64,000 nucleotides of DNA. It comes from Desulforamulus ferrireducens (GTDB lineage: Bacteria > Bacillota > Desulfotomaculia > Desulfotomaculales > Desulfotomaculaceae). The notes under the pieces are model-generated. The model was not told where the DNA came from. It did no database searches and saw only the letters and a list, made by a program, of their open reading frames with translations. Positions 4,203 through 41,034 of the stretch are shown here, piece after piece. The stretch lies in contig NZ_CP019698.1 of NCBI RefSeq assembly GCF_002005145.1, forward strand, positions 1,426,001 to 1,490,000, in the 5' to 3' direction. The first letter of the stretch is position 1. Each line of letters begins with the position of its first letter. The translations under genes were made by a program, and so were the position numbers.

Positions 4203-5768
4203 TTAGGCCTTATTTTTAGCTGTTAGGTGTTTGCCGCGATCGGTATAGACAGTATGCAATAATTCTTCCGCCAAATGACTCATGGGATGTTCAAAGAAGT
4301 TTTTGTAAATATCCAGGACTTCCTGGTTTTCATGGCTGAGACGTTTTTTATACATTTTGGCATCCATGGTGTACAGACTGTCCAGACGGGCCTGGCGCAC
4401 AGAGTCGGACGGGGGTAGGGATGTGCGTGGTTGTCCGCCGCCGCCGATACAACCACCGGGACAGCTCATGAATTCAATAAAATGATAGCTGGGTGGATTA
4501 CCTGCTTTTAAATCTGCCCTTACTTGATCTAAGATTTTGCGGGCATTGCTTAAACCAGAGCAAACAGCGACCTTAACTGGACCCACACCAGGGATTTCCA
4601 GGGATGCTTCCTTAACGCCATTTAAACCGCGCACCGGTGTTAAACTTAGTAAAGCATCCGGCGGATTTTGTTTGGTAATTAGGAAGTAAGCGGAGCGAAC
4701 AGCAGCCTCCATAACACCACCGGTGGTACCAAAGATAACAGCGGCACCGGTGCCTTCACCTAGCATGGAATCATATTGTTCATCGGAGAGTTGAGTAAAG
4801 TCGATACCCTTTTGCTTGATCATATTGGCCAGTTCACGGGTGGTTATAACTGCGTCTACATCCATGATTTCTGGTTTGCCAATCATTTTACCGGCGCTAT
4901 TCATTTCGGGACGTTGGCACTCGTACTTTTTAGCAGTGCAAGGCATTATGGAGACGGAGAAAATCTTCTGGGGATCGATACCCTTTTGCTTAGCATAATA
5001 AGACTTTACAATGGCACCCATCATTTGCTGGGGTGATTTAGCTGAAGACATGTGTTCCAGTAGGTCCGGGTAGTAATATTCACAGAATTTCACCCAGCCA
5101 GGGCTGCAGGAGGTAAACTGCGGCAAAGGTTTTTTCAATTCGCCGGTAACCCGGGCAACCAGTTCGGAACCTTCTTCCATAATGGTCAGGTCAGCGGTAA
5201 AGTTAGTATCAAAAACTGCGTCAAAGCCTAATGCTTTCAAGGCTGCTACTTGTTTACCCTCGACGACGCTGCCTGCGGGCATGCCAAATTCTTCACCCAG
5301 GGCAACCCGGGTAGCGGGTGCAGTTTGTACCACTACATGCAGGTTCGGATCAGCCAAAGCCTTAAATACCCTTTCTGTGTGGTCCACTTCAGTTATTGCT
5401 CCGGTGGGGCACCATAAAGTACACTGCCCGCAGTTGACACAAACGATGTCATCTTTAATGGGCAGCTCGTAGTAACCCATCACTGTCTGCACCCTTTCAC
5501 AGGCCTCAATACATTGGCCGCAAAGGATGCACTTCTTGTCATCCCTGGTGATGGAAGGGTTGGCTGGATCGATGGGCACACGACCTCTCACTTGTACCGG
5601 CCAAGAACTGGCAACCTGGTACTGCTGTGGCATCCACCCTTTGCCCCCGGCCTGGTCAGTGCTGCAGCCGGTAATAGTAGCAGCTACACCCGCCAGGCCC
5701 GCTCCCCCAAGCACCTTGAGGAAGCCACGCCTTGATAATGATTGTGGTTTTGCGGAGCGGTTTTCCAT
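4203..5768 (-). CDS. hydA: Tat-exported [FeFe] hydrogenase catalytic subunit, probable lipoprotein
   Basis: 521 residues. The N-terminus has a twin-arginine signal (SRRGFLK, residues 12-18), a hydrophobic stretch, and an ITGC lipobox-like site at Cys35. Two ferredoxin-type clusters follow (CILCGQCIEAC; CVNCGQCTLWCP). The H-cluster motifs are all intact: TSCSPGW, MPCTAKKYE and MSCPGGCIGGGGQP. The last 65 residues match the iron-hydrogenase small-subunit domain, fused here rather than separate. The enzyme should oxidise or produce H2 outside the cytoplasmic membrane and pass electrons via the HybA-like and NrfD-like subunits. It heads the minus-strand operon and its ATG follows a GGAGGAATG-type site. 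A terminator-like hairpin at 5835-5871 lies in its leader. Confidence 0.92.
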   Translation of the reverse strand: MENRSAKPQSLSRRGFLKVLGGAGLAGVAATITGCSTDQAGGKGWMPQQYQVASSWPVQVRGRVPIDPANPSITRDDKKCILCGQCIEACERVQTVMGYYELPIKDDIVCVNCGQCTLWCPTGAITEVDHTERVFKALADPNLHVVVQTAPATRVALGEEFGMPAGSVVEGKQVAALKALGFDAVFDTNFTADLTIMEEGSELVARVTGELKKPLPQFTSCSPGWVKFCEYYYPDLLEHMSSAKSPQQMMGAIVKSYYAKQKGIDPQKIFSVSIMPCTAKKYECQRPEMNSAGKMIGKPEIMDVDAVITTRELANMIKQKGIDFTQLSDEQYDSMLGEGTGAAVIFGTTGGVMEAAVRSAYFLITKQNPPDALLSLTPVRGLNGVKEASLEIPGVGPVKVAVCSGLSNARKILDQVRADLKAGNPPSYHFIEFMSCPGGCIGGGGQPRTSLPPSDSVRQARLDSLYTMDAKMYKKRLSHENQEVLDIYKNFFEHPMSHLAEELLHTVYTDRGKHLTAKNKA

Positions 5769-37049: not shown

Positions 37050-37242
37050 GATATCACCTCAATTGTTTGCACTCTTACATCTAGTATTACTGAAAACAGT
37101 AGAAATATTAAAAATGTGTACCAATCCTTAACTCCTTGGCTAAACAGCTTGTATATCACTTTGTATAACAAATTAAACAAATTTCGTGATAGAATGACAT
37201 TAAGAAGCACTGTAAAATATTACATTCGACGGGGGCGATAAT

Positions 37243-39177
37243 TTGTTAAAGGGTATTGTCTATACAGACAAAGAAAGATGTAAAGAGTGTTCGGCTTGTT
37301 TGCAAGTTTGTGGGACCAAATCTATCCGGATGCAAGATGGGAAGGCGGAAGTTATTCAGGAAAGCTGTTTAAACTGTGGTTTATGTATTGGTGTTTGCAG
37401 TAAGCAGGCCAAACAATACAAAAGCAGTATCGACAGTGTGAGAAAGCTGCTGGCTGGCCAAAATTGTGCGGCAGTGCTGGCTCCGTCCTATGTTATTGTG
37501 GCGAAAAAGAAATATAATTGCACTCCGGAACAATTTTGCGCAGCCTTAAAGAAATTAGGTTTTAAGCAGGTGTATGAGTCCAGCTTTGGTGCGGATGTGG
37601 TAACAAAGGTTTACCTGGATTATGTTGAACAACTGGTTAAAACCAAAGGTAAAGAACAGACCCACGTTATTGCCAGTCCTTGTCCCTCTTTAATGAATTT
37701 CGTTGAAAAACATACTCCCGAACTTATTGATGAATTTGCCCCTGTACTCAGTCCAATGGCAGCCCAGGCTGTCTTGGTAAAACATTGGAATAAAGAAAAG
37801 ATCAATATTATTGGCGCTAGTCCCTGTGTAGCTAAGAAATCTGAACTACTGGATGAAAAGCTTGGCTTATTTGAAGAGGTAGTGACATTTGAAGAACTGA
37901 TAGAATTAATAGATCAGGCAGGCATAAAACCGGGAAGTTTGGGAGAAGGAGAATTTGACGGTATACAGGCCATGTACGGGGCAGGTTTTCCTATCTCCGG
38001 GGGGTTAACCAAAACACTGGAACAGTTTTCAGGTCAGTTGGAACTGAACCCCATCGGGAATGATATCCTGATTTTGGAGGGAGAAGATAGAAGCCTGGAA
38101 TTTTTAAGACATATGGCCGAGGACAAGAAAAAAGACAAAAATCTCAGGGATTATCCCACCCTGATCGATATCCTCTATTGCGAGGGTTGTATTGTTGGTA
38201 AAGCCATGGGGGTCAAGGGCAGCTTACTGGAGCACAAGAAAATTGTCTCGGACTATACCCAGCGTCGCTTTGCAAAAGTGCAGCGGGAAGGACTGTTTAA
38301 AAAATACAAGGGATACCGGTTTCTCACCAAGAATACCGTGGAAGCTCCTGAGTTCAAACGCTGGATTGATATTGTTGAACAATTGATTAAGCAAAATAAA
38401 TTTACCAGAACCTGGGATAATAAGTATTATCATAAAAATATGCCCAGCGAAGCGGAATTAAAAGCAATTTTACAACAGGATGGTAAATATAGTAAGGAAG
38501 ATGAACTAAACTGTCGTGCCTGTGGCTATAGAACCTGCCGTGAACGGGCGGTGGCAGTTTTTAATGGTGAAAACAAGCCCGGTGGCTGTATTGTCCACCA
38601 GAGAGATATCGCAGAAAGTTTACATAATGATGCGAAACGAATAAACATCCTGGTGAGGGAAAACACCGAAGCGCTGATTGCCACCACCAACGAAATCGTC
38701 AAGGGGAACCAAAGCAATGCTGAAATGTCCAGTCGGTTATTAGAAAATATTGAGAAGCATGCTGAGGAAATAAAAGATCTGCAGCAATTGGTTTTACAAG
38801 TGATTAGAACCTTTGGCTATTTTTCTGAAATGGCAGAAAATATTTCCGACATTGCCGATCAAACCAAGATGTTAAGCTTAAATGCACAAATCGAAGCAGC
38901 CAGGGCGGGTGAGCATGGCAGAGGCTTTGCCGTAGTGGCAGGGGAGGTAATGAAGCTCTCTAACGATACCCATGACAAACTAAAATCAGTAAATCAATAT
39001 AAATCAGAAGTTAGCGGCAGCCAACAGGAACTGGATGAGTTGATTCAAAAACTAATTAATGAATCCAGGCAAGTACAGGAACTGGCCACAGCTTCCGCAG
39101 CTGTATCCCAGCAAATTGCCGCCGCCTCCGAGGAACTATTTGCCGCTACCGAAAACCTAAAATCTATCATTAAATAA
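37243..39177 (+). CDS. Hydrogenase-like Fe-S sensor fused to a methyl-accepting signalling domain
   Basis: 644 residues. Order: two [4Fe-4S] motifs ([11 protein letters not shown] at 13-23; [11 protein letters not shown] at 43-53), an iron-hydrogenase-like domain (about 70-360), an extra Fe-S domain (CRACGYRTC...GGC, about 426-448), then a soluble MCP signalling domain with its hairpin tip around residues 530-570 ([32 protein letters not shown]). The H-cluster motifs are altered: [16 protein letters not shown] and [10 protein letters not shown]. No membrane helices. This suggests a cytoplasmic redox or H2 sensor feeding a chemotaxis-type pathway. The start is TTG 37243 with GGGGGCGAT upstream. 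Single gene. Confidence 0.85.
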
Positions 39178-39825: not shown

Positions 39826-40221
39826 ATGGCTGTATTAGGACAACCCCTAGGTTTACAACTGTTGGCAGAAATATGGGAATGTGATGAGAATAAATTAAAC
39901 GATATCAAGTATATTCAAGAAATGATGATCAAAGCCGCCAAAAAAGCCAACGCCAATATCCGAGAGGTGGCTTTTCACCATTTCGATCCCCAGGGAGTAA
40001 GCGGCGTAGTGGTTATTGCAGAATCTCATCTAACCATCCATACCTGGCCAGAACTGGCCTATGCTGCTGTGGACATATTTACCTGTGGAGAACACGTAGA
40101 CCCCTGGGTGGCTTTGGAAAGCATTACTCAAGATCTCAACGCCGAGGATGCCAATGTGATGGAGATTAGTCGGGGTATGAAAAACCTAAAAAGACTAAAA
40201 AAGAAAAAGCCGGTAACTTAG
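39826..40221 (+). CDS. speH: S-adenosylmethionine decarboxylase proenzyme
   Basis: 131 residues, the small bacterial class. The self-cleavage site is in ESHLTIHTWPE (Ser near residue 67 becomes the pyruvoyl cofactor); the HHFDPQGVSGVVVI and DIFTCGEHVDP blocks carry the other active-site residues. It makes decarboxylated SAM for spermidine synthesis; no spermidine synthase is adjacent. Start ATG 39826, with AAGGAG about 8 nt upstream. The 3' end overlaps the convergent crcB gene by 4 bp. Confidence 0.93.
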   Translation: MAVLGQPLGLQLLAEIWECDENKLNDIKYIQEMMIKAAKKANANIREVAFHHFDPQGVSGVVVIAESHLTIHTWPELAYAAVDIFTCGEHVDPWVALESITQDLNAEDANVMEISRGMKNLKRLKKKKPVT

Positions 40222-40583
40222 AGGGTCTTACCTAACCAATATCCCAGGGCAGCCAAAGCTAAACCCAGTAGAACACTGGCTGCCAGATAAAAAAGAGCTA
40301 ATTTCACTAATCCCTTACGAAAAAGTTCCACTGCCTCTAGTTCGAAGGTAGAAAAGGTGGTAAAGGCCCCCAAAAACCCGGTGGCCAGAAAAGAATAAGT
40401 AGGGGAGTTTATACTTAACCCTAGAAGTAATCCTAGGAGAAAAGACCCCAGCAGGTTAATGGCCAAGGTGCCCAGTGGCAAGGGAAGGGTATGTTTGGTT
40501 TGTAGATAGCCCGAGAGGTAATAGCGGCTGATTGCCCCTAAAAAACCACCGGCAGCTATAAAGATACAGGTATTCATAAACAT
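40218..40583 (-). CDS. crcB: CrcB/Fluc fluoride channel subunit (second of pair)
   Basis: 121 residues, four membrane helices, with family motifs GGFLGAISRYYLSGYL, GTLAINLLGSFLLG and GFLGAFTTFSTFELE. Fluc proteins are fluoride channels formed of two antiparallel subunits; many Gram-positives encode two paralogs that pair. It follows the other crcB with 5 bp between them, so they are co-translated. Confidence 0.92.
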   Translation of the reverse strand: MFMNTCIFIAAGGFLGAISRYYLSGYLQTKHTLPLPLGTLAINLLGSFLLGLLLGLSINSPTYSFLATGFLGAFTTFSTFELEAVELFRKGLVKLALFYLAASVLLGLALAALGYWLGKTL

Positions 40584-40588
40584 GCTCC

Positions 40589-40987
40589 TTATTTGGCGGC
40601 AGAATCAGATGCCTGATATAATTTGGCAGCCAGATAAATACCTAGCCCAGCCAAGCCTAAGCCAGCTATGGTACTGATGAGGACGTACAACAGGGCTAAA
40701 CCGGCCTGACCATCCAGTAGCAAATTTAGTACTTCCACTGAAAAGGTAGAGAAGGTAGTAAATGATCCCATAAAGCCCGTGGTTACTGCCAGTAAAAGCG
40801 GGCGAGGCAATTGCCACTTGAGCATACTACCGTAAACCAAAAAGCTAAGACACAGGCTACCTATAAGATTTACAGCAAGGGTACCATAGGGGAAAAAGTC
40901 TCCCCAGTAGCCAGTGAGGGCTAACCCAAGCAGATAGCGACTCAGGGAACCCAGGATACCCCCGATACCCACCGCCCAAAAATTCAT
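40589..40987 (-). CDS. crcB: CrcB/Fluc fluoride channel subunit (first of pair)
   Basis: 132 residues from ATG 40987 (AAAGGTGATT upstream; the open frame begins 24 bp earlier). Motifs GGILGSLSRYLLGLAL, GTLAVNLIGSLCLSF and GFMGSFTTFSTFSVE parallel those of its neighbour. First gene of the two-gene fluoride-export unit. I looked for the fluoride riboswitch consensus upstream and did not find it; a simple hairpin lies at 41006-41034. Confidence 0.92.
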   Translation of the reverse strand: MNFWAVGIGGILGSLSRYLLGLALTGYWGDFFPYGTLAVNLIGSLCLSFLVYGSMLKWQLPRPLLLAVTTGFMGSFTTFSTFSVEVLNLLLDGQAGLALLYVLISTIAGLGLAGLGIYLAAKLYQASDSAAK

Positions 40988-41005
40988 AGAAATCACCTTT
41001 TGCGG

Positions 41006-41034
41006 AGTCACAGATCCCTTGTTGATTTGTGACT
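41006..41034 (-). promoter_or_regulatory. Hairpin in the crcB leader
   Basis: Arms AGTCACAGATC (41006-41016) and GATTTGTGACT (41024-41034), one mismatch, 7-nt loop, ending about 18 nt before the crcB start on the minus strand. Possible translational or transcriptional control element; no known riboswitch motif. Confidence 0.4.

Follow-up and report, generated by a model that had tools for sequence, protein, structure and literature searches.

Chemotactic [FeFe] H2 sensors have been proposed before. In HydDB, group C2 of the [FeFe] hydrogenases is labelled "Chemotactic (putative)", with H2 sensed through methyl-accepting chemotaxis proteins, or MCPs (PMC5037454). The receptor described here resembles that group in having a sensory H-domain and a proposed role in sensing H2 via MCPs. 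It must be noted that group C2 is a sequence-clustering class to which we liken the receptor by description, and that the parts of the HydDB paper describing it contain neither a single-chain fusion nor a CxxC form of the third H-cluster motif (L3). In a survey of acetogenic Clostridium, the group C2 matches were discarded after validation checks (PMC9431212).

Two characterized sensory hydrogenases are also useful for comparison. TmHydS (group C/M2f) shares with the receptor two [4Fe-4S] clusters, an H-domain, the C-terminal motif C-x2-C-x4-C-x16-C and the loss of the proton-relay cysteine (PMC8163306). The C-terminal motif is reported for sensory [FeFe] hydrogenases of groups C and D in general (PMC8163306). 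Proteins of the TmHydS type are PAS-linked. They differ from the receptor in their PAS output, in the CxxxC of their L3 and in forming their own clade (PAS-HydS rows, 100/100). TamHydS (group D/M2e) has the same three Fe-S regions as the receptor and no PAS domain. The likely group D representatives in our trees, recognized by motif (L216-L223), are unlike the receptor in having ITPC or similar in L2, CxxxC in L3 and no output domain. The C-terminal cluster of TamHydS is not reduced by H2 (PMC13104023), so even this best-studied relative leaves the signal path unsettled. On the output side, cytoplasmic soluble MCPs share the conserved hairpin tip and the lack of a membrane span, but the input of the receptor is a hydrogenase-like Fe-S domain. 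We found no description in the open-licence literature of a CxxC class with exchangeable outputs or of a single-chain MCP fusion.

We argue that this locus encodes a soluble cytoplasmic chemoreceptor with a non-catalytic, HydS-like [FeFe]-hydrogenase input, through which CheA and swimming would follow intracellular H2 or low-potential redox. We hold this to be reasonably probable.

The receptor gene and its domains

The window is the whole 64,000-nucleotide stretch of Desulforamulus ferrireducens DNA that was analysed, and it comes from a closed genome of 3.24 Mb. The features of the receptor gene, in window coordinates, are as follows.

37231-37235, plus strand: GGGGG, a likely ribosome-binding site about 8 bases before the TTG start (read from the sequence)
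37243-39177, plus strand: the whole gene, a 644-aa hydrogenase-like/MCP chemoreceptor (open reading frame, Pfam domains, codon-position pattern against an ortholog)
37279-37398, plus strand: two 4Fe-4S ferredoxin motifs, C13/16/19/23 and C42/45/48/52 (Pfam Fer4; the eight cysteines are invariant in 8 orthologs)
37465-38199, plus strand: Fe_hyd_lg_C, the H-domain, aa 75-319 (Pfam 1e-36; FeFe-hydrogenase fold with Z 36-39)
37672-37689, plus strand: L1 motif ASPCPS, with C147 kept (sequence and alignments)
37819-37839, plus strand: L2 motif SPCVAKK, with C195 and K198 (invariant in an alignment of 76 relatives)
38173-38199, plus strand: L3 motif LYCEGCIVG, a CxxC (C313, C316) (sequence; one-gap column in the alignment against CxxxC relatives)
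38512-38589, plus strand: C-terminal Fe-S motif C-x2-C-x4-C-x16-C, with C424, C427, C432 and C449 (PF04060; invariant in orthologs)
38590-39171, plus strand: cytoplasmic MCP hairpin, helix 450-554, turn, helix 556-643 (PF00015 1e-20; predicted helices)
38851-38967, plus strand: MCP tip, the CheA/CheW-contact region (alignment with the other MCPs of the host genome)
39097-39147, plus strand: two overlapping methylation-consensus sites, 7 residues apart (consensus scan; MCP orthologs)

The start codon is TTG. Over the 643 codons shared with one ortholog (L013) there are 77, 56 and 287 differences at codon positions 1, 2 and 3, a pattern that indicates a real protein under purifying selection. 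The sequence-only reading put two ferredoxin motifs, a hydrogenase-like domain, another Fe-S domain and an MCP domain in one chain, and Pfam agrees. It finds a Fer4 pair at aa 6-56, Fe_hyd_lg_C at aa 75-319 (1e-36, 127 bits against a cut-off of 22), the FeS domain PF04060 at aa 422-450 (2e-8) and MCPsignal (PF00015) at aa 490-638 (1e-20, 75 bits against a cut-off of 34.6). The Pfam scan found no PAS domain in the receptor, and its output match is MCPsignal. The chain was also said to be soluble, and a Kyte-Doolittle scan bears this out. The highest 19-residue mean is only 1.52, at residue 69. This residue belongs to the soluble hydrogenase part, and the protein therefore has no membrane span.

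Iron-sulfur sites and predicted structure

The argument for a sensor depends on the ligand cysteines being conserved. All 16 cluster-ligand cysteines are invariant in 8/8 aligned orthologs. The four H-site cysteines and K198 are invariant in 76 diverse relatives as well, and the SP and GG of the pocket are also kept. There are two departures from a catalytic site. In L1 a proline replaces the proton-relay cysteine, which is C299 in CpI and starts proton transfer in group A. L3 reads CEGC and is one residue shorter than the usual CxxxC, just as had been read from the DNA. The shortened L3 may lose the bridging geometry for the 2Fe subcluster.

An AlphaFold2 model was built from a 76-row alignment and has a pLDDT of 87.7 (with 8 close orthologs only, the pLDDT was 42.6). 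Structure comparison of this model shows a full [FeFe]-hydrogenase fold in residues 1-394. The match has a Z of 39.1 to CbA5H and 35.9 to CpI (4xdc), with 361-363 residues aligned at about 20% identity. The MCP helix of the model begins at residue 450, immediately after the last Fe-S ligand, C449. It runs as one continuous helix from 450 to 554, turns at 554-556 and returns as a helix from 556 to 643. If the model is right, a change at the C-terminal cluster could be passed mechanically straight to the receptor tip.

The MCP half

The host genome has 26 MCPs over the cut-off, the receptor and 25 others. It also has three CheW-domain matches, one of them within a 704-aa, CheA-sized frame. A working receptor has to keep the residues that contact CheA and CheW, and the tip proves to be nearly intact with few changes. 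Nearly all positions common to the other MCPs of the genome are retained, EV included. The deviations are QTK for QTN (N to K) and an M for R near the tip end. The hairpin is short, with 94 residues from tip to end. In 7/7 MCP orthologs examined, as in the host protein, the two methylation-consensus sites lie 68 and 75 residues past the tip glutamate. Judged by their conservation, they would allow adaptation.

Orthologs and exchange of the output domain

Among 113 genomes of the host's class, 17 match at E <= 1e-60 and 16 hold clear members of the receptor family. Named carriers are Desulforamulus aeronauticus, D. aquiferis, Desulforadius tongensis, Desulfocucumis palustris, Desulfotruncus arcticus and a Desulfosporosinus MAG. 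The MCP is not a constant partner, as several close orthologs carry a histidine kinase with receivers. The MCP output is found in the host's genus, Desulforadius and relatives, and the remaining orthologs have HisKA-HATPase-receiver-receiver. Most genes of the kinase type have a lone receiver gene next to them, or a GAF/HD-GYP gene, or one of each. The presence of the same sensor on HisKA-HATPase-receivers in sister orthologs shows that it is a signalling input. The MCP-bearing rows form one clade, with 99/91 when the L3 columns are in and 98/88 when they are out. This implies that the output domain of the sensor has been exchanged, and the tree fixes no direction.

No catalytic hydrogenase gene was seen in 14 ortholog neighbourhoods with flanks up to 6 kb, some of them shorter at contig ends. 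In Desulforadius tongensis the ortholog follows immediately after a conventional transmembrane-type MCP gene, and both are on one strand. In another locus (L077:1232-5620) the MCP-fused ortholog is immediately preceded by a CNDGC sensor whose output is GGDEF and HD-GYP. Both genes have the same orientation, and their open frames are only a few bases apart.

Two orthologs look damaged. One (L018, G027:C22) lacks aa 29-141 in frame, and the D. aquiferis ortholog (G008; L017 and L086) is split by a stop or frameshift. Either may be an assembly error. Taken at face value, they imply that the receptor is dispensable in places.

A wider class with CxxC in L3

The altered L3 is not a one-off. CxxC is common to a broad set of sensory hydrogenase-like proteins. 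At E <= 1e-40, which lets in some group B matches as well, 235 of the 356 good-quality Bacillota genomes in a phylum sample encode a sensory-type protein. Among the proteins read out, L3 is CxxxC in the PAS-only HydS proteins, apart from one divergent row (L232) from which it has been lost. Nearly all sensors with a directly fused output carry CxGC. The outputs of the CxGC proteins, assigned by motif only save those confirmed by Pfam scan, are a sigma-54 activator, PAS plus kinase or sigma-54, GGDEF/HD-GYP, HK-receiver, MCP and a plain coiled coil. L3 is variable in the GGDEF/HD sensors, which have CNDGC, CCDGC or CDGC. CxxxC is the L3 of all tree rows from groups A, B, D and PAS-linked C in which L3 is readable.

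Placed in an [FeFe] hydrogenase tree, the receptor falls with HydS and apart from groups A, B and D. The sensory clade of receptor and HydS is separated from groups A and B with 100/100, and with group D rows added it has 99/98 and 99/95. The group D-type rows (L216-L223) branch apart from the receptor. They were assigned by motif (L2 ITPC or similar, GLDC...TDC), and the trees contain no TmHydS or TamHydS reference sequences. With the L3 columns removed, the PAS-HydS rows form a clade apart from the receptor with 100/100. The receptor is thus separate from the PAS-linked sensory hydrogenases, as was first proposed from its sequence.

The CxxC proteins form a clade with 91/91 when the L3 columns are included, and this clade is not recovered without them. 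An AU test nonetheless does not reject one CxxC clade (p = 0.38). On the 80-row tree with the L3 columns removed, L3 type changes three times. We considered CxxC as a single evolutionary event, and dropped strict monophyly since the clade is lost without the L3 columns. Our claim is that CxxC in L3 is conserved across the sensor class, and strict monophyly lies outside it. We propose tentatively, at somewhat less than even confidence, that the CxGC proteins are sensors derived from hydrogenases, forming a class that is widespread and distinct and whose H-site is modified or lacks the 2Fe part. They would be a plug-in H2/redox input that anaerobic Bacillota attach to sigma-54 activation, phosphorelays, c-di-GMP and, in the family of the receptor, chemotaxis.

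Two further proteins were noticed. The host genus has a paralog (L008, L129; G000:C1:2440158-2440832) with CEGC and a conserved coiled-coil tail ending in IGAAMANIGRNYT. We considered whether it is a decayed MCP and ruled this out, as the tail matches no MCPsignal or other Pfam output domain. The other (L126, G036:C19) is a distant sensory hydrogenase-like protein with CAHGC in L3, a different C-terminal Fe-S context and a very long branch.

Hydrogenases and maturases

The host genome holds HydF, a PAS-linked HydS and group A and group B hydrogenases. The window itself, some 30 kb away from the receptor, contains a group A [FeFe] hydrogenase at 4203-5768 on the minus strand, whose twin-arginine-type signal reads RRGFLK, and opens with the end of a group B hydrogenase (L004 and L006 cover the group A and B genes). 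Two adjacent small genes at 40218-41011 on the minus strand look by eye like CrcB/fluoride-channel subunits.

We dropped maturase co-occurrence as a test for an H-cluster, because genomes without HydF also carry intact group A genes. HydF over the cut-off is absent in 35 genomes with strong sensory proteins, and HydG is absent too in 34/35 of these. Group A-type matches (E below 1e-90) are nonetheless present in 33 of the 35, and all but one of these 33 lack HydG as well as HydF. Carriers include G201, which is a closed genome, as well as G123, G132, G154 and G393 (loci L236-L255). Of 20 group A-type genes from HydF-less genomes, 17 could be parsed, and L1, L2 and L3 are intact in all 17. With group A genes intact in maturase-less genomes, the absence of maturases says nothing about the sensors. 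The group A carriers without HydF and HydG have either an unrecognised maturation route or very divergent maturases.

Alternative explanations and proposed mechanism

It is worth considering what else the receptor could be. C147, C195, C313 and C316 could hold an ordinary [4Fe-4S] cluster with no 2Fe subcluster, making this a pure redox receptor, for ferredoxin or low potential, that does not sense H2. We put this just short of an even chance. CxxC is the usual spacing for [4Fe-4S] sites, unlike the L3 of groups A, B, D and PAS-linked C. The proline at the proton-relay position points the same way, as does the lack of adjacent hydrogenase genes in the ortholog neighbourhoods that we read. However, apart from the deletion the landmarks of the pocket are kept (four cysteines, K198, SP and GG). 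In addition, 8/16 loci listed for related CxGC sensors have a group A hydrogenase no more than about 7 kb away on the contig of the sensor, where we estimate that chance would give a few percent. H2 sensing at a modified H-site and pure [4Fe-4S] redox sensing seem to us about equally probable.

One can also imagine a catalytic [FeFe] hydrogenase whose attachment to the chemoreceptor array is incidental, since the hydrogenase fold is complete and the two-cluster ferredoxin domain is intact for electron delivery. We find this very hard to credit. The C299 equivalent is missing and L3 is altered, so that ASPCP and CEGC depart from the motifs that define groups A and B. The receptor scores about 130 bits against the hydrogenase family and five group A enzymes in the same genome score 319-344. 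Sister proteins also carry kinase outputs. A different scenario keeps the sensor and gives up swimming: the MCP part would be a relic or serve a non-motility, Che-like pathway, leaving a redox-responsive scaffold. The short hairpin, some unusual tip residues and the broken copies in two relatives speak for it. It remains improbable in our view, as the tip and both methylation sites are kept across orthologs at 67-83% identity, and the Desulforadius tongensis gene sits directly behind a transmembrane-type MCP.

We therefore return to a chemoreceptor with a non-catalytic hydrogenase input. Electrons or H2 would change the state of its Fe-S clusters or H-site. The change would be relayed via the C-terminal [4Fe-4S] domain, where C449 comes directly before helix residue 450. 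This would alter the packing of the MCP hairpin, and CheA activity and swimming would respond to intracellular H2 or low-potential redox. What we infer here is the cluster content, the signal sensed, the direction of the response and the coupling to CheA, together with the effect on motility.

Implications

If this is true, one recurring hydrogenase-derived module reads H2 or low-potential redox, and swapping its output would direct that signal to motility, gene expression or c-di-GMP. The split between CxxxC in PAS-linked sensors and CxxC in directly fused ones makes it testable whether canonical L3 spacing is needed to hold an H-cluster. It also raises the question of whether an H-domain can sense without one. 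The single-chain receptor would be a convenient test object for both, because CheA activity is an easy read-out.
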